This document shows positions 9,121 through 53,515 of a stretch of DNA of 64,000 bases, in pieces (the first letter of the stretch is position 1; each line of letters starts with the position of its first letter). The notes under the pieces were generated by a model. It had not been told where the DNA came from, did no database searches, and saw nothing but the letters and a program-made list of their open reading frames with translations. The translations under genes and the position numbers were made by a program. This DNA comes from Ahrensia kielensis DSM 5890 (GTDB lineage Bacteria > Pseudomonadota > Alphaproteobacteria > Rhizobiales > Rhizobiaceae), in assembly GCF_000374465.1 (NCBI RefSeq), contig NZ_KB894531.1, positions 327,142-391,141 on the forward strand, written 5' to 3'.

Positions 9121-9203
9121 GGTCATAAGCGCGGCTGTTCAGCGATATTTTTAAACGCCGAGCCACTGACCGGTGCGTAAAATCTTTATGATGCCGGAGG
9201 TCA
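9121..9203 (+). ncRNA. Candidate structured RNA or switching leader upstream of ffh
   Basis: TGACC at 9167-9171 can pair either with GGTCA at 9121-9125 (with CGGC 9132-9135 / GCCG 9157-9160 inside) or with GGTCA at 9199-9203 (with GG/CC inside). The two pairings exclude each other, and a strong terminator hairpin begins two bases after the second. This is the shape of an attenuator or small RNA. I do not recognise a known riboswitch or the SRP RNA here. Confidence 0.3.
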
Positions 9204-9204
9204 A

Positions 9205-9239
9205 CACCCGACAGCGCGATGCGCCCTCGGGTGCTTTTT
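9205..9239 (+). terminator. Rho-independent terminator upstream of ffh
   Basis: Stem CACCCGA (9205-9211) with TCGGGTG (9227-9233), with an inner GCGC/GCGC pair (9214-9217 and 9221-9224) and a GAT loop, followed by C and five T (9235-9239). It could end the methyltransferase operon or act in the leader described for 9121-9203. Confidence 0.7.
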
Positions 9240-9286
9240 GGCTATGTGCGCGGGGGTTTAACAAATTAGCTGAATGCTTATCTTGG

Positions 9287-9303
9287 TTTCACATGGTGTG
9301 AAA
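9287..9303. promoter_or_regulatory. Perfect palindrome before ffh
   Basis: TTTCACA (9287-9293), three bases, TGTGAAA (9297-9303): a perfect 7-bp inverted repeat ending 18 bases before the ffh ATG and just ahead of its AGCAGGA Shine-Dalgarno. It may be a repressor operator or a small mRNA hairpin affecting ribosome access. Confidence 0.5.
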
Positions 9304-9321
9304 TGAAGAGCAGGAACAAAT

Positions 9322-10878
9322 ATGTTTGAATCACTTCAGGACCGTTTAGGTTCGATCTTTTCTGGCCTCACAGGCCGCGGCGCACTTTCCGACAAGGATG
9401 TGGCAGCGGCGCTGCGCGAGATTCGCCGTGCGCTGATCGAAGCGGATGTTGCGCTGGAAGTGGTGCGTGATTTTACCGATCGCGTGCGCGAAAAAGCCGT
9501 TGGCGTTGATGTCGTCAAGTCCGTTAAACCGGGCCAGATGGTCGTCAAGATCGTGCATGACGAGCTGGTTGAAATGCTCGGCAGCGAAGGCGAGACAATC
9601 GACCTTAACGCGCCGTCGCCTGTTGTCATTATGATGGTGGGCTTGCAGGGTTCTGGTAAAACAACGACCTCTGCAAAAATTGCTAAGCGCTTAACAGGCC
9701 GCGATAAGAAAAAGGTCTTGATGGCCTCGCTCGATACGCGCCGTCCAGCGGCCCAAGAGCAGCTTCGCCAGCTTGGTGAACAGGTGGACGTGGTTACCCT
9801 GCCGATCATTGAGGGCCAGTCGCCTTCTGATATCGCAAAACGTGCGGTGCAAGCTGGTAAGCTTGGCGGCTACGATGTTGTTATCCTCGACACGGCAGGC
9901 CGCACGCATATTGACGAGCCGCTGATGATCGAGATGGCGGATATTCGCAAACATGCGGACCCGCACGAAATTCTGCTTGTTGCTGACTCGTTGACGGGTC
10001 AGGACGCTGTTAATCTTGCCAAAAGCTTTGACGAGCGTGTGGGCATTACTGGCCTTGTGCTTACCCGTATGGACGGCGATGGACGCGGCGGTGCTGCTCT
10101 TTCTATGCGTGCTGTTACGGGCAAACCAATCAAGCTGATTGGTACGGGCGAACGCATGGACGAGATGGAAGAATTCCATCCCAAGCGTATTGCCGACCGT
10201 ATTTTGGGTATGGGCGATATTGTTTCGCTGGTTGAAAAAGCCGCCGAAAATATCGACCAAGAAAAAGCGGCCCAAATGGCCAAGAAGATGCAGGAAGGCA
10301 AGTTCGATATGAACGATCTTGCGGATCAATTGCATCAGATGAAGAAAATGGGCGGCATGGGCGGTATCATGGGAATGATGCCGGGCATGGGCAAGATGAA
10401 AGACCAGATGGCTGCGGCCGGAATGGATGACAGCATCTTTAACCGTCAGCTTGCGATCATTGGTTCTATGACCAAGCATGAGCGCGCGCGCCCTGATATC
10501 TTAAAACATAGCCGCAAGAAGCGTATTGCCGCTGGTTCTGGCACGAACGCTGCTGAAATCAACAAGCTTTTGAAAATGCACCGCCAGATGGCCGACATGA
10601 TGAAATCCATGAAGGGCAAAAAAGGCGGCGGCATGATGGGCAAGATGATGGGCGGTCTTGCTGGCAAAATGGGCATGGGCGGCGGAATGCCGGGCGGTAT
10701 GGGCGCTGGTATGCCTGATCTGTCTAGCATGAGCCCGAAAGAAATCGAAAATCTGCAAAAGCAGGCCGAGCAAATGGGTCTTGGCGGCGGCGGCATGCCG
10801 AAACTGCCGGGCCTTGGCGGTCCGAAATTACCTGGTTTAGGCGGCGGCGGTTTGCCGGGCCTGCCTAAAAAGAAATAA
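9322..10878 (+). CDS. ffh: Signal recognition particle protein Ffh (SRP54)
   Basis: Binds SRP RNA and nascent signal sequences and, with FtsY, delivers ribosomes to the membrane. The 518-residue protein has the helical N domain, then the G domain with P-loop GLQGSGKTTT (about 112-121), DTAGRTH and TRMDGDGRGG, and a methionine-rich M domain from about residue 325. The C-terminus ends with a long Met/Gly stretch and GLGG-PKLPGL repeats, longer than the enterobacterial protein. The receptor gene ftsY begins this window. rpsP follows 43 bases downstream. Confidence 0.98.
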   Translation: MFESLQDRLGSIFSGLTGRGALSDKDVAAALREIRRALIEADVALEVVRDFTDRVREKAVGVDVVKSVKPGQMVVKIVHDELVEMLGSEGETIDLNAPSPVVIMMVGLQGSGKTTTSAKIAKRLTGRDKKKVLMASLDTRRPAAQEQLRQLGEQVDVVTLPIIEGQSPSDIAKRAVQAGKLGGYDVVILDTAGRTHIDEPLMIEMADIRKHADPHEILLVADSLTGQDAVNLAKSFDERVGITGLVLTRMDGDGRGGAALSMRAVTGKPIKLIGTGERMDEMEEFHPKRIADRILGMGDIVSLVEKAAENIDQEKAAQMAKKMQEGKFDMNDLADQLHQMKKMGGMGGIMGMMPGMGKMKDQMAAAGMDDSIFNRQLAIIGSMTKHERARPDILKHSRKKRIAAGSGTNAAEINKLLKMHRQMADMMKSMKGKKGGGMMGKMMGGLAGKMGMGGGMPGGMGAGMPDLSSMSPKEIENLQKQAEQMGLGGGGMPKLPGLGGPKLPGLGGGGLPGLPKKK

Positions 10879-43983: not shown

Positions 43984-44030
43984 AAAAAAGCTCCGGTTAT
44001 TGCTGGGTACCCATGCAACGACCGAAGCTT
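43984..44030 (-). terminator. Terminator of tal
   Basis: On the minus strand, a 10-bp stem (44021-44030 with 43988-43997, one G-T pair) encloses a nested GGGTACCC palindrome, followed by a run of six T (43984-43989). It sits directly upstream of the SDR start codon. Confidence 0.75.
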
Positions 44031-44058
44031 GTTTAAGTTCCGAGATTTAAGGCGGCGA

Positions 44059-44715
44059 TTAACCCGCGATATTCTGTCCGGTTTTTGCCCAGTCAGCTGT
44101 GAACTGCTCAAGGCCTTTATCTGTAAGCGGATGCTTAACAAGCGCTTTCAATGTTGAAGGCGGAATTGTTGCAACGTCTGCACCGATAAGAGCAGCTTCT
44201 TTAACGTGATTTACTGTGCGGATAGAGGCCGCAAGAATTTCAGTTGAGAAACCGTAATTGTCATAGATCGTGCGAATTTCGCCGATCAATTCCATGCCGT
44301 TGATCGCCATGTCATCAAGGCGGCCAATAAATGGGGAGATGAATGTCGCGCCAGCTTTAGCAGCAAGCAAAGCTTGGTTTGCAGAAAAGCAAAGTGTGAC
44401 GTTTGTTTTGTAACCGTCAGATGTAAGCGCTTTACAGGCTTTCAATCCGTCCATTGTGAGCGGCAGCTTGATGCAGATATTGTCTGCAATTTTGGACAAG
44501 ACGGCGGCTTCTTTCATGATCGTTTCATAATCGCTTGCAGCGACTTCTGCTGAAACGGGACCATCGACTTCTGCGCAAATTTCTTTAGTCACTTCAAGAA
44601 TGTTGCGACCAGATTTAAGAATGAGCGACGGATTAGTTGTCACGCCATCGAGAAGGCCAGTTGCGTTCAATTCGCGGATGTCGCCAATATCGGCTGTGTC
44701 TACAAAGAATTTCAT
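44059..44715 (-). CDS. tal: Transaldolase, MipB/TalC (fructose-6-phosphate aldolase-like) subfamily
   Basis: 218 residues, the short decameric type. [17 protein letters not shown] and the Schiff-base lysine K83 in CIKLPLT are conserved, plus SPFIGRLDD. Either transaldolase of the pentose phosphate pathway or fructose-6-phosphate aldolase; in alphaproteobacteria this form generally serves as transaldolase. An AAAGGA site precedes the start. Confidence 0.95.
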
Positions 44716-44790
44716 TGTTTCTGTCCTTTGTGTTTCTATATGAAGGTTCTAACTTGTCGTTTAGACTAAACTAGCGGCAAGGTCACGCCT

Positions 44791-46989
44791 ATGGTGAACG
44801 ATTCGATAAATAAAATTAAAACGATTAGTATTTTGGTGCCGACACCTTCGCCGGTCCCTTATAGCTATGCTCTACGCGCTGACCAAACTGCCGGACCTGG
44901 GTCTATTGTACAGGTGCCGCTTGGCCCGCGGCAGGTTTCTGGCTTGGTGGTGGAAGATCTGCCAGATGCCAAGCCGATTGATCCGGCAAAGCTGCGTGAA
45001 GTAACGCAGGTTTTCGATTGTCCGCCGATCACCCCCGACATGTTACGCTTTATTGACTGGGTTGCCAAATATACATTGTCTGCACCGGGCATGGTGGCAC
45101 GCATGGTGCTGCGCTCGCCGACCGCATTTGACCCTGAACCACCGACCAAAGGCATTGTCGCAACCGGTACGCAGCCGGAACGATTGACCGATGCGCGCAG
45201 GCGGGTGATGGAGCAGGTCGCAGAAGAGCCGCAAATGGCTTGGACGCGCAGCGGGCTTGCCCATGCCACAGGCGTAACGACCTCGGTGATTGATGGTTTG
45301 ACCAAGCTGAATGTGTTTTCTGAAATTGAAATTCCGGCTCGTCCGATTGTTGCAAAGCCTGATCCATCTTTTGGCGAACCGGAACTGATCGGCGATCAGC
45401 GCGATGTTGCCGAAGGGTTGGCTGCAACTGTTTCGGAACAGAAATTTTCTGTCACGCTTTTGGAAGGTGTCACAGGCTCGGGTAAAACCGAGGTTTATTT
45501 TGAAGCGATTGCGGCGGCGATTAGCCAAGGCAAGCAGGTGCTTGTGCTGTTGCCAGAAATTGCGTTGACGCAGGTATTTCTTGAGCGTTTCCACGATCGT
45601 TTCGGGGCCGAACCTGCGCCATGGCATTCTGATTTGGCACCGCGCACACGCGAACGCGTCTGGCGACAAGTAACCGAAGGCCAAGTGCAAGTGGTGGCCG
45701 GCGCGCGCTCGGCGCTTTATCTTCCGTTTCAAAATTTAGGGTTGATCATTGTCGATGAGGAGCATGATGCTGCTTATAAACAAGAGGACCGTGTTTTTTA
45801 TAACGCACGCGATATGGCCGTTGTTCGGGCGCATTTGGGCGGCTATCCGGTTATTTTAGCCTCAGCCACGCCATCGGTTGAAACGCGCCACAATGCGCAA
45901 GAAGGCCGCTATAAATATGAGCGCCTTGATAAGCGCTATGCCGATGCTGCCCTGCCAACGCTGAAAGCGATTGATATGCGCAAATCGCCGCCACAGCGCG
46001 GTGGGTTTATATCGCCAGCGCTCATCGAAGCGATGCAGGAAACGCTTGAGCGCGGCGAGCAGAGCTTGTTGTTTTTGAACCGTCGCGGCTATGCACCGCT
46101 CACACTATGCCGTGCCTGCGGGCATCGTTTCGAGTGTAGTAATTGTTCGGCTTGGCTGGTGGAGCACCGTTTTCGCAAACAGCTTGTGTGCCACCATTGT
46201 GGGCATAATGAACATGTGCCTGAATCATGTCCTGAATGCGGAACCTTTGACCATTTGGTTGCGTGTGGCCCTGGCATTGAGCGCATCGCCGAAGAAACGC
46301 TTTCGCACTTTCCCGATGCGCGCATTATTGTGCTGTCGTCCGATATGACGGGCGGGGTAAAACGCTTGCGGCTAGAAATGGATGCGATTGCCAAGGGCGA
46401 AGCTGATATTGTGATCGGCACGCAGCTTGTTGCCAAGGGACACAACTTTCCAAACATGACGATGGTGGGCGTGGTTGATTCTGATTTGGGTCTTGCCAAT
46501 GGCGATCCGCGTGCCGCCGAACGCACGTTTCAACTTTTATCGCAGGTGACTGGCCGTGCAGGGCGAACCGGTAAAAAGTCCGTCGGTTTGCTGCAAACTT
46601 TTCAGCCGGAACATCCTGTTATGCAGGCGATTATATCGGGCGATATGGATGCGTTTTATGAAAAACAAATTGATGAGCGCGAACGGGGTAAAATGCCGCC
46701 ATTTGGCCGTTTGGCCTCGCTGATCATTTCGGCAGCGACAAGGCTGGAGGCGGAACAACATGGCCGCGCTTTGCGCGGTGCAGCACCTATTGCCAAAGAT
46801 GTGATGGTGCTCGGGCCTGCCGAAGCGCCAATTGCGATGGTGCGCGGGCGTCATCGGTTCCGTATTTTGGTCCACGGTGATCCACGCACAAATGTGCAGG
46901 CTTATTTGCGTGAGATGATTAGCAAGGCACCGCGTCCGCGCGGGTCGGTTAAAGTGCAGATCGATGTCGATCCGCAGAGCTTTTTGTAA
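44791..46989 (+). CDS. priA: Primosomal protein N' (replication restart helicase PriA)
   Basis: 732 residues. The N-terminal DNA-binding domain starts VPTPSPVPYSYALRA; the helicase core has Walker A GVTGSGKTEV and DEEHDAAYKQ; the zinc-binding module has eight cysteines (from CRACGHRFECSNC to CPECG). Reloads the replisome at stalled forks. Its last 52 bases recur as a separate copy 1,144 bp downstream. In rhizobia the F1 ATP synthase operon usually follows closely; here 4.4 kb intervenes. Confidence 0.97.
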   Translation: MVNDSINKIKTISILVPTPSPVPYSYALRADQTAGPGSIVQVPLGPRQVSGLVVEDLPDAKPIDPAKLREVTQVFDCPPITPDMLRFIDWVAKYTLSAPGMVARMVLRSPTAFDPEPPTKGIVATGTQPERLTDARRRVMEQVAEEPQMAWTRSGLAHATGVTTSVIDGLTKLNVFSEIEIPARPIVAKPDPSFGEPELIGDQRDVAEGLAATVSEQKFSVTLLEGVTGSGKTEVYFEAIAAAISQGKQVLVLLPEIALTQVFLERFHDRFGAEPAPWHSDLAPRTRERVWRQVTEGQVQVVAGARSALYLPFQNLGLIIVDEEHDAAYKQEDRVFYNARDMAVVRAHLGGYPVILASATPSVETRHNAQEGRYKYERLDKRYADAALPTLKAIDMRKSPPQRGGFISPALIEAMQETLERGEQSLLFLNRRGYAPLTLCRACGHRFECSNCSAWLVEHRFRKQLVCHHCGHNEHVPESCPECGTFDHLVACGPGIERIAEETLSHFPDARIIVLSSDMTGGVKRLRLEMDAIAKGEADIVIGTQLVAKGHNFPNMTMVGVVDSDLGLANGDPRAAERTFQLLSQVTGRAGRTGKKSVGLLQTFQPEHPVMQAIISGDMDAFYEKQIDERERGKMPPFGRLASLIISAATRLEAEQHGRALRGAAPIAKDVMVLGPAEAPIAMVRGRHRFRILVHGDPRTNVQAYLREMISKAPRPRGSVKVQIDVDPQSFL
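46938..46989 (+). repeat. Direct repeat copy 1: 3' end of priA
   Basis: 52 bases ending with the priA stop codon. Identical to 48082-48133 at 49 positions, differing at 46945, 46947 and 46966. The match begins and ends sharply, and it extends exactly through the stop codon. Confidence 0.95.
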
Positions 46990-47010
46990 GCGTAGCGATC
47001 TTAATTCAAA

Positions 47011-47553
47011 TTATGAAAATCTAATTTCAGGCGCGGTGACACTGCTTAGCACTGCGCCTGTGTTTATAGCGCTATATATCGACCTTGGCGGGCGTGCGGT
47101 CTCATCCACGCTGCGTGCCACCCAGCTTCTGGATTCCATGGATTTTAGGGATTGCGACAACGCTCGGTCGGTTATTGTGTGTAGGTTTCGTTTGATGTCA
47201 TTGAAGTGACACGGCACGTGAAGCGATGTTAACACCGGCAAAGTCCAAGACTTACGAAGCAAATCCTGCCCTTCTCCTGCCGATAGAGTTTGAATTTTGT
47301 TCGCAATAGCAGCGGCGGCAATACCTTGTTGTGTGAGCCGAAATTCAGGGCGTAATGGATGGTCATAACCGGGGTTTCTTTCCATTAGCCCTAATTCGAT
47401 TAGATGATCCAGACTTTGTGTGAATGCGGTTCTGCTGGCGCCTGTTGCAGCCAGAAGTGTAGCCTGACGCCCAGCAATGCCAGCGTGCAGGTTCGACAAT
47501 ATGGGGAGAGCCCACGCTCTTGATGTGATGTTGACAAATGTTTTTATGTCCAT
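47011..47553 (-). CDS. Tandem winged-helix (HxlR-like) transcriptional regulator
   Basis: 180 residues that appear to hold two HxlR-like winged-helix units. The first, residues 1-75, contains RAWALPILSNLHAG and FTQSLDHLIELGLMERNPGY. The second, residues about 98-165, contains KSWTLPVLTSLHVP and LSQSLKSMESRSWVARSVDE. Single-domain HxlR proteins act as dimers, so a fused pair could bind as a monomer. No conserved redox cysteine is seen near the N-terminus. Divergent from the VOC gene with a dyad between them, so it probably controls both. The gene lies between the two copies of the priA end. Confidence 0.75.
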   Translation of the reverse strand: MDIKTFVNITSRAWALPILSNLHAGIAGRQATLLAATGASRTAFTQSLDHLIELGLMERNPGYDHPLRPEFRLTQQGIAAAAIANKIQTLSAGEGQDLLRKSWTLPVLTSLHVPCHFNDIKRNLHTITDRALSQSLKSMESRSWVARSVDETARPPRSIYSAINTGAVLSSVTAPEIRFS

Positions 47554-47557
47554 AAAG

Positions 47558-47570
47558 TATAGTTAGTATA
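47558..47570. promoter_or_regulatory. Near-palindrome between divergent regulator and VOC gene
   Basis: TATAGTTAGTATA, a 13-bp dyad with one mismatched pair, also readable as AGTATA direct repeats (47556-47561 and 47565-47570). It starts five bases upstream of the regulator start codon and would block its ribosome or polymerase access when bound. Confidence 0.45.
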
Positions 47571-47592
47571 TTTAATGACAAAAGGAAAGACC

Positions 47593-47973
47593 ATGTCACT
47601 TATTTCGTTGGATAACACCATAAACATCGCATTGTCGGTTAAGGATCGGCATGTAAGCGCTGCGTGGTACGAAAAAATGCTCGGGTTTAAGACGATCTAC
47701 CACGCAGACGATGCAGGTTGGTCAGAACTGCAAACAAACACTCAAGGGGTTACAATCGGGCTTGGAGAGCACACTAAGCCCGTGCCGGGCAATTGTGTTC
47801 CTGTGTTCGGCATAGCTGATTTGGATTCTGCAAGACAAAAGTTGGAACAGGCCAAAGTCAAATTTGATGGTGAAACCGATGTGATTGAAGGCATGGTCAA
47901 GACCGCAACCTTTTATGACCCTGACGGCAATGCTATGATGCTCGCTCAAGATTTGACAAATGGAGCCGCATGA
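47593..47973 (+). CDS. VOC-family protein (glyoxalase/bleomycin-resistance type)
   Basis: 126 residues from ATG 47593 (AAGGA 6 bases upstream; ATG 47575 is a weaker alternative). One VOC unit: NIALSVKDRHVSAAWYEKMLGFKTIY, and FYDPDGNAMMLAQDL at the end. A glutamate and histidines that would bind metal are few, so it could sequester a toxic ligand rather than catalyse. Divergent from a regulator in the segment between the priA-end repeats; such pairs often give inducible resistance. The inducer is unknown. Confidence 0.82.
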   Translation: MSLISLDNTINIALSVKDRHVSAAWYEKMLGFKTIYHADDAGWSELQTNTQGVTIGLGEHTKPVPGNCVPVFGIADLDSARQKLEQAKVKFDGETDVIEGMVKTATFYDPDGNAMMLAQDLTNGAA

Positions 47974-47988
47974 TTGGCAGCTGCAAAT

Positions 47989-48034
47989 GCTGCGGCATAT
48001 ATTCAGATGGGTATTGCCGCAGCCGAACTCTTTT
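47989..48034 (+). terminator. Probable terminator of the VOC gene
   Basis: Perfect 9-bp stem GCTGCGGCA (47989-47997) / TGCCGCAGC (48015-48023), 17-base loop; a four-T run comes seven bases after the stem, so it is weaker than usual. Confidence 0.5.
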
Positions 48035-48081
48035 AAAGGGTATAATTCGGCTCTGTCGTTGATGAATATCTAAACTGCTCG

Positions 48082-48133
48082 GCGCGGGGCAGTTAAAGTG
48101 CAGATCGATATCGATCCGCAGAGCTTTTTGTAA
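48082..48133 (+). pseudogene. Direct repeat copy 2: detached fragment of the priA 3' end
   Basis: A 52-base copy of the last priA codons including the stop, 49 of 52 identical to 46938-46989. In the priA frame it is open only from 48074, so it is a non-functional remnant. One difference changes Val to Ile in the IDVDP segment. It marks the right border of the 1.14-kb segment holding the HxlR-like regulator and VOC gene. Confidence 0.92.
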
Positions 48134-48157
48134 CTCCGCGGATTTAGTTATTTACTA

Positions 48158-48613
48158 TTAGCGTATTGTTTTGCTTCGTGAGTCGTAGCCGCCCCAAACT
48201 TTTGTTGTACTTGACCCACTCGCGCTTACATCGAAGCGATAGTTAGAAACAGAATTTCCAGTCGTGTTACAAGGCGGTAGAAATTTGTGATTTACCGTTG
48301 TTGTGCCTGAAGCGTTTGACATAACGCGTGTGCGACGGTGCTCGTATGTGTTTCCGTTGCTAATTTTGTCCCACATACGTATTTTAATTGGAACGCCGCC
48401 AACTGCAGAGTGCTTAATGGTCAATGTTGGAGCTGTGCCTTGCCCTCCAAGTTGTTTGCAAACGTTGTTTAAAGTGAGAGGCGAAACAGAAACCGACGAG
48501 ATTTGAAAATTAGAACTTACTGAAGCTTCGCTTGAGCTGCCCGCTGTTTCACTGCACGCCATAAGCGCTAGTGATGCTATGCCTGATAATCCAACTGATA
48601 GATATGATTTCAT
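48158..48613 (-). CDS. Lipoprotein of unknown function
   Basis: 151 residues with a lipoprotein signal ending LMAC (cysteine at about residue 20), a Ser-rich linker, then a beta-rich mature domain with two cysteines (NNVCKQLGG, LPPCNTTG) likely forming a disulfide. No family is recognised. It faces the direct-repeat remnant, 25 bases away. Its Ser/Thr/Asn-rich composition differs from the housekeeping genes around, as is common for surface proteins or transferred genes. Confidence 0.7.
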   Translation of the reverse strand: MKSYLSVGLSGIASLALMACSETAGSSSEASVSSNFQISSVSVSPLTLNNVCKQLGGQGTAPTLTIKHSAVGGVPIKIRMWDKISNGNTYEHRRTRVMSNASGTTTVNHKFLPPCNTTGNSVSNYRFDVSASGSSTTKVWGGYDSRSKTIR

Positions 48614-48728
48614 AGTGCCTCCCGATATTAATACTTTACGAAGCGTAACTGTTGTGTGCGGCTATTGTTCTTGTCAATAGTTCCAAAGTTAATTCATTCT
48701 AGTAAAGATTAATTATGACACTTTTATT

Positions 48729-48932
48729 CTACGCTCTGCGGCCCCAGCGTATTTTTGACCAAAACCGTTCATGGATAAAATAGAACACAAAGCCTGTCGC
48801 GCTGGCGGACAGTGCAAGCATGATCGAATCAATCAGATTGCCGGATTGAAAAAGCGCAAGCAGGGTCATGGTCGCTATGCCAAGTAATTGCCATGTGATG
48901 GCTTTGACAAATGTTCTGCGCGGCAGTTCCAA
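48729..48932 (-). CDS. DUF2061 membrane protein
   Basis: 67 residues, TTG start supported by AAGGAG six bases upstream (48939-48944 on the plus strand). The pattern RTFVKAITWQLLGIATMTLL, and YFIHERFWSKIRWG at the end, is that of DUF2061, predicted two-helix membrane proteins of unknown function. Alone on the minus strand, divergent from the XRE regulator. Confidence 0.85.
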   Translation of the reverse strand: MELPRRTFVKAITWQLLGIATMTLLALFQSGNLIDSIMLALSASATGFVFYFIHERFWSKIRWGRRA

Positions 48933-49058
48933 TGTGGGCTCCTTCGATTCGAATGTGTTCAGATGTGGTTTACGTACCGCATATTTTGGCTTGCCGGAAT
49001 TTGGAAAGAGTGAAACATTAAGTCCATAATGTTTAAAAAAAACACCAAAGTAGATTAA

Positions 49059-49895
49059 ATGAACAAGCTAGATAGAGCCGCATTATTTCGTGACCGTGTT
49101 GTCGAGCGGCTCACTGCTGCGAAAATCAGCCGTTCACAGCTGTCGCGTGATGCAGGTATTGACCGTTCAACTGTTGCGCAAATTCTCAATGGTGAAGATG
49201 CGCGCTTGCCCAATGCGCACATAGCGGCTGAATTTGCGGCGGCACTCGGTGTAAGCGCTGATTGGTTGCTTGGCTTGTCGGATCGTTCCGAGCGGGCAGC
49301 GCAATTGCTGAGCGCAGGTTTGAATTTTGCCGATGCACAGCGCACGCCTGCCGATGAGCAATTGATCGCTTGGCACCGTGAGGCGGCGGGGCATAAAATT
49401 CGCGCCGTACCGACAACGCTGCCTGATATTTTGAAAACCGGCGCGATGCTGGAATGGGAATATGAGTTGTTTCAGGACAAAACGCCTGAACAGGCCAGTG
49501 CGGCGATGCGCGATACAGCCGATTGGCTACAAGCCCCGGGGTCGGATTATGAAATTTGTGTACCGATAGAGACGGTGAAATCATTGGCGCGCGGCGAGGG
49601 TTATTTTGAAGGAATACCCAAGGATGTGCGTGTTGAGCAGATAATGCATATGGCAAAACAATGCGGCGATCTTTACCCGTCCGTGCGGCTTTATTTATTT
49701 TCCAGCCGCAAAGTCCATTCTGCGCCCTTGGTAATTTTCGGACCGTTGATTGCCGCTGTTTATGTCGGGCAGTTCTATATGGTGTTTCGAGAGCGCAAAC
49801 AGGTGCAGGGTTTAACCCGTCATTTTGATGAATTGGTGCGTGCCTCTAGTGTTGATGCACGCTCGGCGGCGCAGGTTATCCGGTCTTTTCTTTAA
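49059..49895 (+). CDS. XRE-family transcriptional regulator
   Basis: 278 residues. An N-terminal helix-turn-helix of the Cro/C1 type (about 13-70: ISRSQLSRDAGIDRSTVAQIL, LGVSADWLLGL in shorter parts) and a 200-residue C-terminal domain of unknown function that may bind a ligand. No cupin signature is seen. It could control the EamA exporter 42 bases downstream, which is an inference from position. Confidence 0.85.
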   Translation: MNKLDRAALFRDRVVERLTAAKISRSQLSRDAGIDRSTVAQILNGEDARLPNAHIAAEFAAALGVSADWLLGLSDRSERAAQLLSAGLNFADAQRTPADEQLIAWHREAAGHKIRAVPTTLPDILKTGAMLEWEYELFQDKTPEQASAAMRDTADWLQAPGSDYEICVPIETVKSLARGEGYFEGIPKDVRVEQIMHMAKQCGDLYPSVRLYLFSSRKVHSAPLVIFGPLIAAVYVGQFYMVFRERKQVQGLTRHFDELVRASSVDARSAAQVIRSFL

Positions 49896-49937
49896 GGGGT
49901 AAATCTGCCAGAGCGATTGAAGCACTTATTCGGACAT

Positions 49938-50840
49938 ATGATCTTGCAAACCAAATCTCCTATCGCAGAAATACCAATGCCGCCGATTGCTATTGGTATT
50001 GCGCTGTTTTCGTTCTTCTGTTTTTCACTGCTCGATGCGTCAGCCAAATGGCTTGTGGTTGGTGGGCAGGCAGTGTTTTTTGTTGTTTGGGTCAGGTTTG
50101 CGATTCAAGCTCTGTTTTTGCTCCTGTTCTTTAAGGGTTGGATTAATCCAAAACTATGGAAGATGGAGCGGCCTGTGCTGCAGGTTTGCCGTGGACTTTT
50201 ACTGCCCGCGATGACGTGCTTCAATTTTCTTGCGCTTCAATATTTGCAACTTGCCGAAACAATTTCTGTGCTGCTTGCTTCTCCTATTGTGGTTGCTGTT
50301 CTGGCTGGTCCTATGCTGGGTGAATGGGCAGGGCCGCGCCGATGGATTGCGATTTTTATCGGATTTATCGGTGTGTTGATTGTTGTGCGGCCGGGAACAG
50401 ATGTTTTTAGCTGGCCGGTCCTGCTGATCATCGGCTCAATGCTGTGCAATTCGTTCTATCTGGTGCTGACACGAAAGCTGGCTTCGGTTGAAACGCCGGA
50501 AAGCCTGATCTTTTATTCCTGCTTCTTTGGTGTGCTTATCTTTGCACCACTTGGTATTCCTGAAGCGCAGATGCCGCAGCAAATGTCTGACTGGTTTGCT
50601 TTTGCTCTAGCGGGCATGGCGGGCATGGTTGGCCATATGGGGTTGATTAAAGCAAGCAAGCTTGCCGATGCGGCAAAGGTTACGCCGTTCATCTATACGC
50701 AGATCATATGGATGACATTGCTCGGGTTTCTTATTTTTGGTGATCTGCCTGACGGCTGGACCGTATTGGGTATGATGGTTGTCGCGGGGTCGGGCCTTTA
50801 TCTGTGGTACCGCGAGCACAAACTTAGAAAGAGGGCATAA
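49938..50840 (+). CDS. EamA/DMT-family transporter
   Basis: About 300 residues from ATG 49938, ten helices in two repeats. The first repeat end is AETISVLLASPIVVAVLAG and the second ends at LLGFLIFGDLPDGWTVLGM. Resembles the S-adenosylmethionine/riboflavin-type and drug exporters of the superfamily; the substrate is unknown. The start is uncertain (TTG 49917 and ATG 49977 are in frame). One-base overlap (TAATG) with the next gene indicates co-translation. Confidence 0.85.
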   Translation: MILQTKSPIAEIPMPPIAIGIALFSFFCFSLLDASAKWLVVGGQAVFFVVWVRFAIQALFLLLFFKGWINPKLWKMERPVLQVCRGLLLPAMTCFNFLALQYLQLAETISVLLASPIVVAVLAGPMLGEWAGPRRWIAIFIGFIGVLIVVRPGTDVFSWPVLLIIGSMLCNSFYLVLTRKLASVETPESLIFYSCFFGVLIFAPLGIPEAQMPQQMSDWFAFALAGMAGMVGHMGLIKASKLADAAKVTPFIYTQIIWMTLLGFLIFGDLPDGWTVLGMMVVAGSGLYLWYREHKLRKRA

Positions 50841-51232
50841 TGCAAGAAGTGATTATCAATGAGCCTGCAGGCGAATGGTTTGCGCTCGCATCGGCATATA
50901 TAACGATTGGCTTCGGACTGATTCTTCTTTTGGCACCGCGCAAGGCATTTCAGATTTTGCGCTTGCGCACCGCTGAAGGTGTGCCGGAGGCTTTATCGGA
51001 AAGTCGTGCGACAATGGCTGGGTTCTATTTTGGCGTCGGTATTCTAGCGATTCTCTTTAGCCAGCCGTTATTATGGCTGACGCTGGGCGCAGGCTGGGCA
51101 TTCACCGCATTAGGCCGTTTGGTTTCGATTATCGTTGACCGTGGCAACACGCGTTTTAACTGGATTTCGATAGCAATGGAGGCCGCATTGGCGGCTGGAC
51201 CGCTGATTTATGGCTATACAGCGTTATTTTAA
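50840..51232 (+). CDS. Small membrane protein, DUF4345-like
   Basis: 130 residues with four hydrophobic segments. The SESRATMAGFYFGVGILAILF part and the GRLVSIIVDRG turn fit the DUF4345 pattern of four-helix membrane proteins, of unknown function. Translationally coupled to the EamA gene upstream, so it may work with it. Confidence 0.6.
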   Translation: MQEVIINEPAGEWFALASAYITIGFGLILLLAPRKAFQILRLRTAEGVPEALSESRATMAGFYFGVGILAILFSQPLLWLTLGAGWAFTALGRLVSIIVDRGNTRFNWISIAMEAALAAGPLIYGYTALF

Positions 51233-51268
51233 GCCTTTTATATGCGACAAAAGAGTAGGTTCAACACC

Positions 51269-51395
51269 TTGCACCATGCTAAACCCTATGCTAGATCGCC
51301 ATCATCTTGCTTAGGGGTTGCGGCTTGTAGATCCTAAGTGTTTAAAAAAAACAATTTAATCAACGTGTTAGGGCTTTAATCCGTTTTGGAGCCCT
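51269..51395 (+). promoter_or_regulatory. Possible atp operon promoter and leader hairpin
   Basis: TTGCAC (51269-51274) with TAGATC (51292-51297) at 17-base spacing, followed by a leader containing AGGGCT (51370-51375) / AGCCCT (51390-51395), a 6-bp stem with 14-base loop. Both are modest matches. The 190 bases between 51233 and 51422 hold no supported gene. Confidence 0.3.
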
Positions 51396-51422
51396 TTAAC
51401 ATTATCTAGCTAAGAGAAGTGA

Positions 51423-51986
51423 TTGCCTGTGGCTACATCGTCTCCTACCTCTCAAGTTGCCGCGCGTTATGCGGGTTCATTGTATGAACTTGCTGTTGAT
51501 GCGAAGGCTGCAACCAAGGTCGAAGCATCGCTTGATGCGTTCGAAGCTATGGTTTCCGGCAGTGCCGACCTAAAGCGCCTTATTGAAAGTCCTGTCTTTT
51601 CATCAGACGATCAAGTGGCAGCAATTAACGGCATTACTGCCAAAGCAGGTTTTCACCCGCTTGTTACAAATTTCCTCAAAGTAGTTGCTGGCAATCGCCG
51701 CCTCTTTGCAGTGCCTTCCATCATTAAAGCATTTCGTGAAATCGCAGCCGATGGCCGCGGTGAAGTGTCTGCTGATGTGACTGTGGCCACAAAGTTGACT
51801 GCTGCTCAGGAAAAAGAATTGAAGGTTGCATTGAAAGATGTTGCCGGCAAAGACGTGACGCTCAACGTAACAGTTGATCCGTCAATTCTCGGAGGTTTGA
51901 TAGTGAAGGTCGGCTCACGCCAGATCGATACATCACTAAAGACCAAACTCTCCTCACTTAAGATTTCGCTCAAAGAGGTCGGATGA
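51423..51986 (+). CDS. atpH: ATP synthase F1 delta subunit
   Basis: 187 residues. Connects the F1 head to the peripheral stalk. The N-terminal [15 protein letters not shown] helix and the C-terminal [21 protein letters not shown] motif are conserved. The TTG start gives MPVA..., the start I remember from other rhizobial AtpH proteins; GTG 51429 is an alternative. First gene of the F1 operon; F0 genes are elsewhere, as is normal in this group. Confidence 0.96.
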
Positions 51987-53515
51987 TGGACATTCGCGCG
52001 GCAGAGATTTCTGCAATACTTAAAGACCAAATCAAGAATTTCGGCAAAGAAGCTGAGATTTCCGAGGTTGGACAAGTTCTATCTGTAGGTGACGGTATTG
52101 CCCGTATCTACGGTTTGGACAAAGTTCAGGCTGGTGAGATGGTCGAATTCCCTGGTGGCATTCGTGGCATGGCGCTCAACCTCGAAGAAGACAACGTAGG
52201 TGTTGTTATCTTTGGTGCTGACCGTGACATTAAAGAAGGTGACACAGTTAAGCGTACAGGCGCGATTGTGGATGTGCCGGTTGGTAAAGGTCTTCTTGGC
52301 CGTGTTGTCGACCCGCTCGGTAACCCGATTGATGGCAAAGGCCCTATCAAAGCTGAAAAGCGCATGCGCGTTGACGTTAAGGCGCCGGGCATTATCCCAC
52401 GTAAATCTGTTCATGAGCCAATGTCTACTGGTCTTAAAGCTATCGATGCTTTGATCCCTGTTGGCCGTGGTCAGCGCGAACTTATCATTGGCGACCGCCA
52501 AACAGGTAAGACAGCGATCATTCTTGATACATTCTTGAACCAGAAGCCAGCACACGAGACAGGCACAGAAAGCGAAAAGCTTTACTGTATCTATGTTGCG
52601 GTTGGTCAGAAGCGTTCAACTGTTGCCCAGTTCGTGAAGGTTCTTGAGGAGCGCGGCGCGCTTCCTTATTCAATCATCATTGCTGCGACAGCATCTGATC
52701 CTGCTCCACTGCAGTTCCTTGCACCATTTGCAGGCTGTACAATGGGTGAATATTTCCGCGACAACGGCATGCACGCTTTGATCGGTTATGATGACCTTTC
52801 AAAACAGGCTGTTGCTTATCGTCAGATGTCACTTCTTCTTCGTCGTCCTCCGGGCCGTGAAGCTTATCCTGGTGACGTTTTCTATCTTCACTCACGCCTT
52901 CTTGAGCGTGCAGCGAAATTGAACGAAGACGAAGGCTCTGGTTCATTGACGGCTTTGCCGGTTATTGAAACACAGGCGAACGACGTTTCTGCTTATATTC
53001 CGACTAACGTGATTTCGATCACTGACGGTCAGATCTTCCTTGAAACGGACTTGTTCTTCCAGGGTATTCGTCCTGCTGTGAACGTTGGTCTATCGGTTTC
53101 TCGTGTTGGTTCTGCTGCGCAGATTAAAGCGATGAAACAGGTTGCTGGTTCTATTAAGGGTGAGCTTGCTCAGTACCGCGAAATGGCTGCGTTTGCGCAG
53201 TTCGGCTCCGACCTTGATGCTTCCACACAGCGTTTGCTGAACCGTGGTGCGCGTTTGACAGAATTGCTTAAACAGCCACAGTTCTCGCCGCTTAAAACGG
53301 AAGAGCAGGTTGCTGTTATCTTTGCTGGCGTGAAAGGTTATCTTGATAAGCTTCCAGTCAACAAGGTTGGTGAGTTTGAGCAAGGCCTTCTGACGCATAT
53401 GCGCGGTGAAGGAAAATCCATTCTCGAAACGATTGCAAAAGAACAGAAGCTAACTGATTCAACAGAAGAAGCGCTGAAATCTGCAATTGAGGCATTCGCA
53501 AAGAGCTTCGCTTAA
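51986..53515 (+). CDS. atpA: ATP synthase F1 alpha subunit
   Basis: 509 residues from ATG 51986 ([16 protein letters not shown], the family start; AGAGG seven bases upstream). ATG 51983 directly before it overlaps the atpH stop. Non-catalytic nucleotide site with P-loop [10 protein letters not shown] and the arginine finger region [10 protein letters not shown]. Forms the hexamer with AtpD. Confidence 0.98.

Follow-up and report, generated by a model that had tools for sequence, protein, structure and literature searches.

In the genome of Ahrensia kielensis DSM 5890, the gene for the replication restart helicase PriA is followed by a second copy of its own 3′ end, with two other genes in between. 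This arrangement was analyzed in a stretch of 64,000 nucleotides (nt) from contig NZ_KB894531.1 (positions 327,142 to 391,141), hereafter the window, whose numbering is used for its features. The priA gene (44791 to 46989, plus strand) is intact and codes for a 732-amino-acid protein that scores above the cut-offs of TIGR00595 and NF004071. Its functional 3′ end (copy 1, 46935 to 46989, plus strand), which includes the near-palindrome GATCGATGTCGATC, matches a displaced or foreign priA 3′ end (copy 2, 48079 to 48133, plus strand), which includes the perfect palindrome GATCGATATCGATC. The space between the copies is occupied by a gene for an HxlR-family regulator (47011 to 47553, minus strand; Pfam HxlR, 1.4e-14), convergent with priA, and a divergently oriented gene for a VOC/glyoxalase-family protein (47575 to 47973, plus strand; Pfam Glyoxalase, 5.9e-10); both families had been suggested in an earlier note on this DNA, made from the sequence alone, and are supported by Pfam. 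Beyond copy 2 comes P0005, a small lipoprotein-like open reading frame (48158 to 48613, minus strand; lipobox read by eye) that has no match in Pfam, NCBIfam, or PHROG and lies in a stretch with a GC content of 42.4%, among the lowest 1% of the window.

The repeat that encloses the HxlR/VOC pair, 46938 to 46989 versus 48082 to 48133, is identical at 49 of 52 nt (51 of 55 when extended to 46935 and 48079), and both copies terminate in a TAA codon in the priA frame. In a scan of the window with the 52-mer, the runner-up sites matched at 30 and 27 positions on the plus strand and at 27 or fewer on the minus strand, confirming the 52-bp duplication that the earlier note had described. A BLAST search of the window against itself (E ≤ 1e-4) reported the two priA ends as the sole repeat, a whole-genome search with the copy 2 stretch gave priA as the sole other good match, and a profile of the last 25 PriA residues found two priA ends in the genome. 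As that note had also stated, no means of transposition is apparent: Pfam detected no recombinase domain in any of the inserted proteins (P0003, P0004, and P0005), the HxlR and VOC proteins show no likeness to DNA-moving enzymes in Pfam, NCBIfam, or PHROGs, and none of the inverted repeats of at least 18 nt between 44500 and 50500 joins the two ends of the segment. At Rfam gathering scores, nothing was found in window positions 44000 to 52000 or in the loci L003, L245, L043, and L013.

Two genomes of the same genus, which encode PriA proteins 94% (A. marina LZD062) and 80% (G002, an assembly 81% complete) identical to that of the window, have a single priA end each. In G002, the priA stop codon nearly abuts DNA homologous to the window from position 48731; in A. 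marina (locus L012), ∼430 nt of other DNA come after priA, and homology then resumes from window position 48751. Neither genome contains a detectable homologue of the HxlR regulator or of P0005, and none of the VOC protein was found in the priA locus of A. marina, to which that search was confined. Thus, three members of one genus carry three differing contents downstream of priA. The earlier note had proposed an inserted cassette of 1.1 kb and had suggested aligning this locus with its relatives. The alignment agrees with acquisition and extends it: since the same-genus genomes lack everything up to 48730, the acquired interval, which is not in the ancestral arrangement, runs from 46990 to 48730, or ∼1.74 kb, including ∼600 nt beyond copy 2 with the lipoprotein-like reading frame. 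This interval looks like two stacked acquisitions, an HxlR/VOC segment and a P0005 segment, with both the two events and their order being inferred. No relative was encountered that has the same regulator and VOC genes but no second priA end, an arrangement that the earlier note had named as contrary to insertion.

Second priA ends, for which that note had proposed a search, are also present in four more genomes, all of more distant relatives (loci L013, L043, L055, and L245), each time with different cargo. None of these four has the HxlR/VOC pair next to its second end, the other arrangement that had been named as contrary to insertion, but other DNA always lies between the two ends; no locus with two priA ends and an empty spacer was seen. 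Among 80 named priA loci, the best second copies of the last 40 nt match at 38 of 40 positions in L043, 37 in L013, and 30 in L055, as compared with 20 to 25 in the others, and a position-specific matrix scores these copies at 77, 60, and 18, respectively, the window at 56, and the best other candidate at −24.8. One further second end, in L245 (genome G870), emerged from 80 regions of 79 genomes, mostly top-ranked, that were taken from the matches listed in a DNA search with the L043 end (394 family genomes, two candidates scored per genome); it scores 44 with a softer matrix, versus 0.6 for the best other. The profile of the last 25 residues, applied to 394 family genomes with at most 21 candidates scored in each, so that weak copies may escape, found a priA end in 382 of them and two matches in A. 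kielensis, G829, G870, G939 (identical to L013), and G951. The G829 case was set aside, as its two priA ends lie on two contigs with the same neighbor gene, as in a mixed assembly, and the second match in G951, with an E value of 0.0097 on another contig, was taken as chance. This leaves credible second copies in 3 of the 382 genomes, 478 to 1,144 nt from the first and all within 1.2 kb of priA. Among the same best candidates, no integrase-sized element carrying a second priA end was detected. When the L043 end was searched for, phage records (50,697) gave no match and plasmid records (72,556) a single weak and partial one. The length of the duplicated tail, as read by eye, ranges from about 46 to 80 nt.

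In three of these loci, empty relatives indicate which copy borders the original downstream DNA. In L013, from Oceaniradius, the distal copy ends in TTTCCTTTGA followed by CGTAT, as do the empty relatives L014 and L015, and the copy within the gene ends differently, in TTTTCTGTGA. This pattern would fit either a crossover within the shared core or a distal copy that is native throughout. Similarly, the empty relatives L085 and L062 align with L043 and L055, respectively, from the distal copy onward. In all three, the distal copy borders native downstream DNA; therefore, the material entered at the priA 3′ end, as the earlier note had assumed. The window has no close empty relative for such a comparison, and either of its copies may be the foreign one. 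The VapC/VapB-like genes of L043, once considered a second cassette, were dropped, since the empty relatives show them to be part of the native downstream DNA and the methyltransferase segment alone to be new. Silent differences between the ends were likewise dropped as proof of foreign origin, since a functional copy accepts mostly silent changes; over the last 57 nt, 6 of 7 differences in L013 and 3 of 3 in L043 are at third codon positions (counted by eye), and those in the window are mostly not silent.

Several of the cargos also occur beside priA in a second lineage. The methyltransferase gene of L043 directly follows priA in the Aminobacter-type loci L033, L041, and L020, with 70 to 72% nucleotide identity, and A. 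marina has a noncoding element of L245 immediately after its priA gene (80% identity over 161 nt and 83% over 47 nt). The lipoprotein-like gene between the two priA ends of L013 is 68% identical to window P0005 and is the only good relative of P0005 found: 60 other genomes yielded no match, and 385 genomes of the class yielded P0005 itself and one weak match with stop codons. Such adjacency is expected under both exchange at the locus and a priA-specific element. It bears on a further explanation, a plain tandem duplication of the priA end whose spacer was captured or replaced later. An array of sdhB 3′ ends in A. marina offers a precedent, as a gene end has been duplicated there without an obvious cargo gene. 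However, the priA spacers contain DNA common to other lineages, and the empty relatives place the spacer between the gene end and the native downstream DNA, which makes tandem duplication very improbable.

The HxlR/VOC pair is scattered over the class, with DNA similarity restricted to the two genes. Homologues of the regulator at E values below 1e-49 were found in 4 of 60 other genomes in the search of relatives; the VOC protein was found in 22 of 397 genomes of the order (E ≤ 1e-35) and in 12 of 279 genomes of the class at the cut-off used, A. kielensis included. Of 37 loci entered into a comparison of the two flanks of the pair, 35 were complete, and all 35 have the genes in the divergent orientation in varied contexts. 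With the threshold set at 24 of 30 matching positions between the flanks (mismatched flanks reached 23 or fewer in 150 draws), three complete loci qualify, each with the end of a different gene. Besides the window, these are L124, where the flanks of the pair hold the 3′ part of a glutaredoxin gene and its decayed copy (29 of 30; alignment of ∼115 nt), and, as a weak case, L138, where the repeat (24 of 30) lies near the 3′ end of what we take to be a phnN-like gene. The same cargo is thus found at priA, glutaredoxin-gene, and, weakly, phnN-like ends, which does not fit one cargo at one site with a constant core. L314, with a flank repeat of 23 of 30 and a protein-level likeness (IDIEIR.AD.D) to the adjacent gene, is a possible further decayed case that is merely suggestive, and a repeat of 23 of 30 in L318 was judged to be chance.

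These observations could be explained if the HxlR/VOC pair were itself mobile through an enzyme that targets gene 3′ ends and duplicates ∼50 nt of the target upon insertion, as has been suggested for restriction-modification genes of Helicobacter. The invariably divergent pair in its varied settings, with flanking repeats from three different genes, speaks for such mobility. Against it, 32 of the 35 loci are below the repeat threshold, unrelated cargos form the same structure at priA, and neither protein resembles a DNA-moving enzyme; we regard this explanation as rather improbable. Much the same must be said of a broader view, a speculation to which we attach little weight, in which the 3′ ends of housekeeping genes would be general docks for cassettes of about 0.4 to 1.1 kb that circulate in Alphaproteobacteria and stack beside the same gene. 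In this view, a dedicated enzyme acting in trans would favor priA over other docks, and HxlR/VOC would be one of its repeated passengers.

The reading that we favor, with somewhat more confidence than doubt, is that the segment is horizontally acquired DNA that recombined on the conserved priA 3′ end without any recombinase of its own. An incoming fragment, made up of the last ∼50 to 80 nt of a relative's priA and the adjoining DNA, would recombine with the resident gene end. This could take place through a single RecA-type crossover, if the fragment was small and circularized, or through homology-facilitated illegitimate recombination (HFIR), in which one side joins by homology and the other illegitimately. 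A single crossover leaves a copy of the homologous stretch on either side of the insert. The outcome would be a whole priA gene, cargo directly past its stop codon, and the second end on the far side, which would then decay. In A. kielensis, this would have happened twice at one spot, bringing in the P0005 segment and the HxlR/VOC segment, and the DNA could have been delivered by natural transformation, gene transfer agents, or conjugation. Recombination anchored on gene ends accommodates the absence of a recombinase, the variation of the tail, and the presence of the pair at the ends of other genes.

The earlier note had instead seen the priA 3′ end as a dedicated attachment site. In that scheme, it would be an attB site and the segments tiny nonautonomous integrative elements bounded by attL and attR, similar to cis-mobilizable elements (CIMEs), with the recombinase supplied in trans or lost. 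Integrative elements and CIMEs at gene 3′ ends leave the host gene whole and duplicate its end, and they have, or derive from elements that have, a recombinase and a fixed att site. Several features agree with this scheme: the enrichment of priA ends for second copies, the duplication that terminates exactly at the stop codon, the near-palindromic core, the whole gene with a displaced native end in L013, the possible stacking in the window, the three cargos that each follow a priA end in two lineages, and the direct repeats of a gene end that flank the cargo and are represented by a single copy in the empty relatives. What the scheme shares with the loci described here is the whole host gene with a duplicated end; the recombinase and the fixed att site, on the other hand, were not found. 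The inserted window proteins have no recombinase domain, and among the candidates scored in the 382 family genomes no second priA end belonging to a larger element was detected. There is no phage match and just the one weak plasmid match to the L043 end, the tail length is not constant, and the HxlR/VOC pair has the ends of other genes around it elsewhere. A dedicated site is therefore not favored, and we consider this explanation unlikely.

Several results weigh against gene-end recombination, which accounts less well for the enrichment at priA and for the short tails: random joining would permit tails longer than any of those seen. A second copy (31 or more of 45 nt, no farther than 3.5 kb away) is found at 5 of 122 distinct priA ends but, in the same loci, at just 2 of 1,304 ends of other genes (Fisher P = 8e-5, or 6.5e-4 without the window), an enrichment that a site-specific system predicts more directly. 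No tract of donor sequence farther upstream in priA was visible in L013, L043, or the window. The three other cargos occur beside priA in a possible donor lineage. The flanks (mostly 1.5 kb) of 23 HxlR/VOC loci contain no match to PriA, so that no donor was found for the segment in the window. Finally, the threshold of 24 of 30 was reached by none of the 10 complete pair loci that were added once it had been set, and the bracketing of the pair stands on the first set of loci.

Part of the enrichment at priA may have another source, as many of the compared genes may belong to operons, so that an insertion behind them would be harmful. One of the two cases at other gene ends is sdhB of A. marina, and the second is possibly chance; a match of 31 of 45 in L018 was kept as a control hit, though it may be chance. 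The cut-off of 31 of 45 nt was also applied downstream of gene starts (4 of 1,593 with a copy) and gene middles (7 of 1,552). Among 419 and 332 gene 3′ ends in 40 stretches of the A. kielensis (G000) and G870 genomes plus the window, matches of at least 30 of 45 were obtained for priA of the window (42) and four times in G870 (38, 34, 31, and 30). On inspection by eye, these four were considered repeats or chance matches and not copies of gene ends, so that the 751 ends include no convincing copy besides that of window priA.

Integration of foreign DNA through a homologous stretch, with no enzyme of a mobile element, has parallels elsewhere. One study (PMC3240628) describes linear DNA entering Escherichia coli as being either degraded or ligated and integrated by a single crossover, with HFIR being rare there, and names HFIR for pneumococcus, Acinetobacter baylyi, and Pseudomonas stutzeri. 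Such events are known from laboratory recombination, whereas the present ones would be old interspecies events at a gene end. For the type VI immunity-gene arrays of Vibrio cholerae, the authors of another study propose an HFIR-like mechanism, with successive gains 3′ of a conserved locus and older parts shifted downstream (PMC5361080). Effector genes are replaced in those arrays, whereas here the housekeeping gene stays whole and the cargo is unrelated to it. Insertion with long target duplication (Nobusato et al., 2000) is presented in two later papers (PMC1643837 and PMC4978471) as a strain polymorphism of Helicobacter pylori that often involves restriction-modification genes. The window likewise has an insert between long direct repeats of the target, which is single in the empty site, and shows no transposase or terminal inverted repeat; the difference is that a conserved gene has its 3′ end repeated here. 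No transposase is known to be involved in the Helicobacter process. Among the literature matches listed, judged by their titles and the beginnings of their abstracts, none concerned priA as an insertion site. What is new here is the recurrence at a housekeeping gene and the bracketing of one gene pair by the ends of different genes.

Bacteria can gain single genes or gene pairs without a recognizable mobile element, by a route that is often unclear. Here, the duplicated gene end, the unoccupied site in relatives, and the different cargos that other genomes carry at this position are surviving traces of it. The route can therefore be tested from sequence, by looking for nearby duplicates of gene 3′ ends, as well as by transformation. 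The comparison with relatives suggests that bacteria can gain small DNA segments through ordinary recombination at the end of a gene that both partners share, with no dedicated mobile-element enzyme.

Some additional features were seen at the loci compared. The ∼350-nt noncoding element 3′ of priA is partly conserved between A. marina (L012, ∼9203 to 9550) and G870 (L245, 6620 to 6970, minus strand), and on its reverse strand both have a short reading frame resembling a leader peptide (by eye). In G829, the two contigs with the same priA end and neighbor gene (L173 on C44 and L174 on C33) show 84% protein identity, consistent with mixed strains or an unresolved duplication. In L013 (1529 to 2516) and L015 (1953 to 2871), an HxlR/VOC pair with 57 to 66% protein identity to that of the window is located ∼4 to 4.5 kb upstream of priA. 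The Oceaniradius pair comes directly after sdhB, with the HxlR stop codon (1529) 16 nt from that of sdhB (1512), and in L109 the HxlR gene ends ∼56 nt from the end of a presumably rpoD-like gene; in both, the flank repeat is below the threshold. The sdhB gene was named from its C-terminal motif and a Pfam match of the Oceaniradius homologue. In A. marina (L012, 1701 to 2227), its stop codon is followed by three further partial sdhB 3′ ends in a tandem-like array, with the copies separated by GC-rich, hairpin-like stretches (by eye), and the sdhB end in the window (41424) is single.

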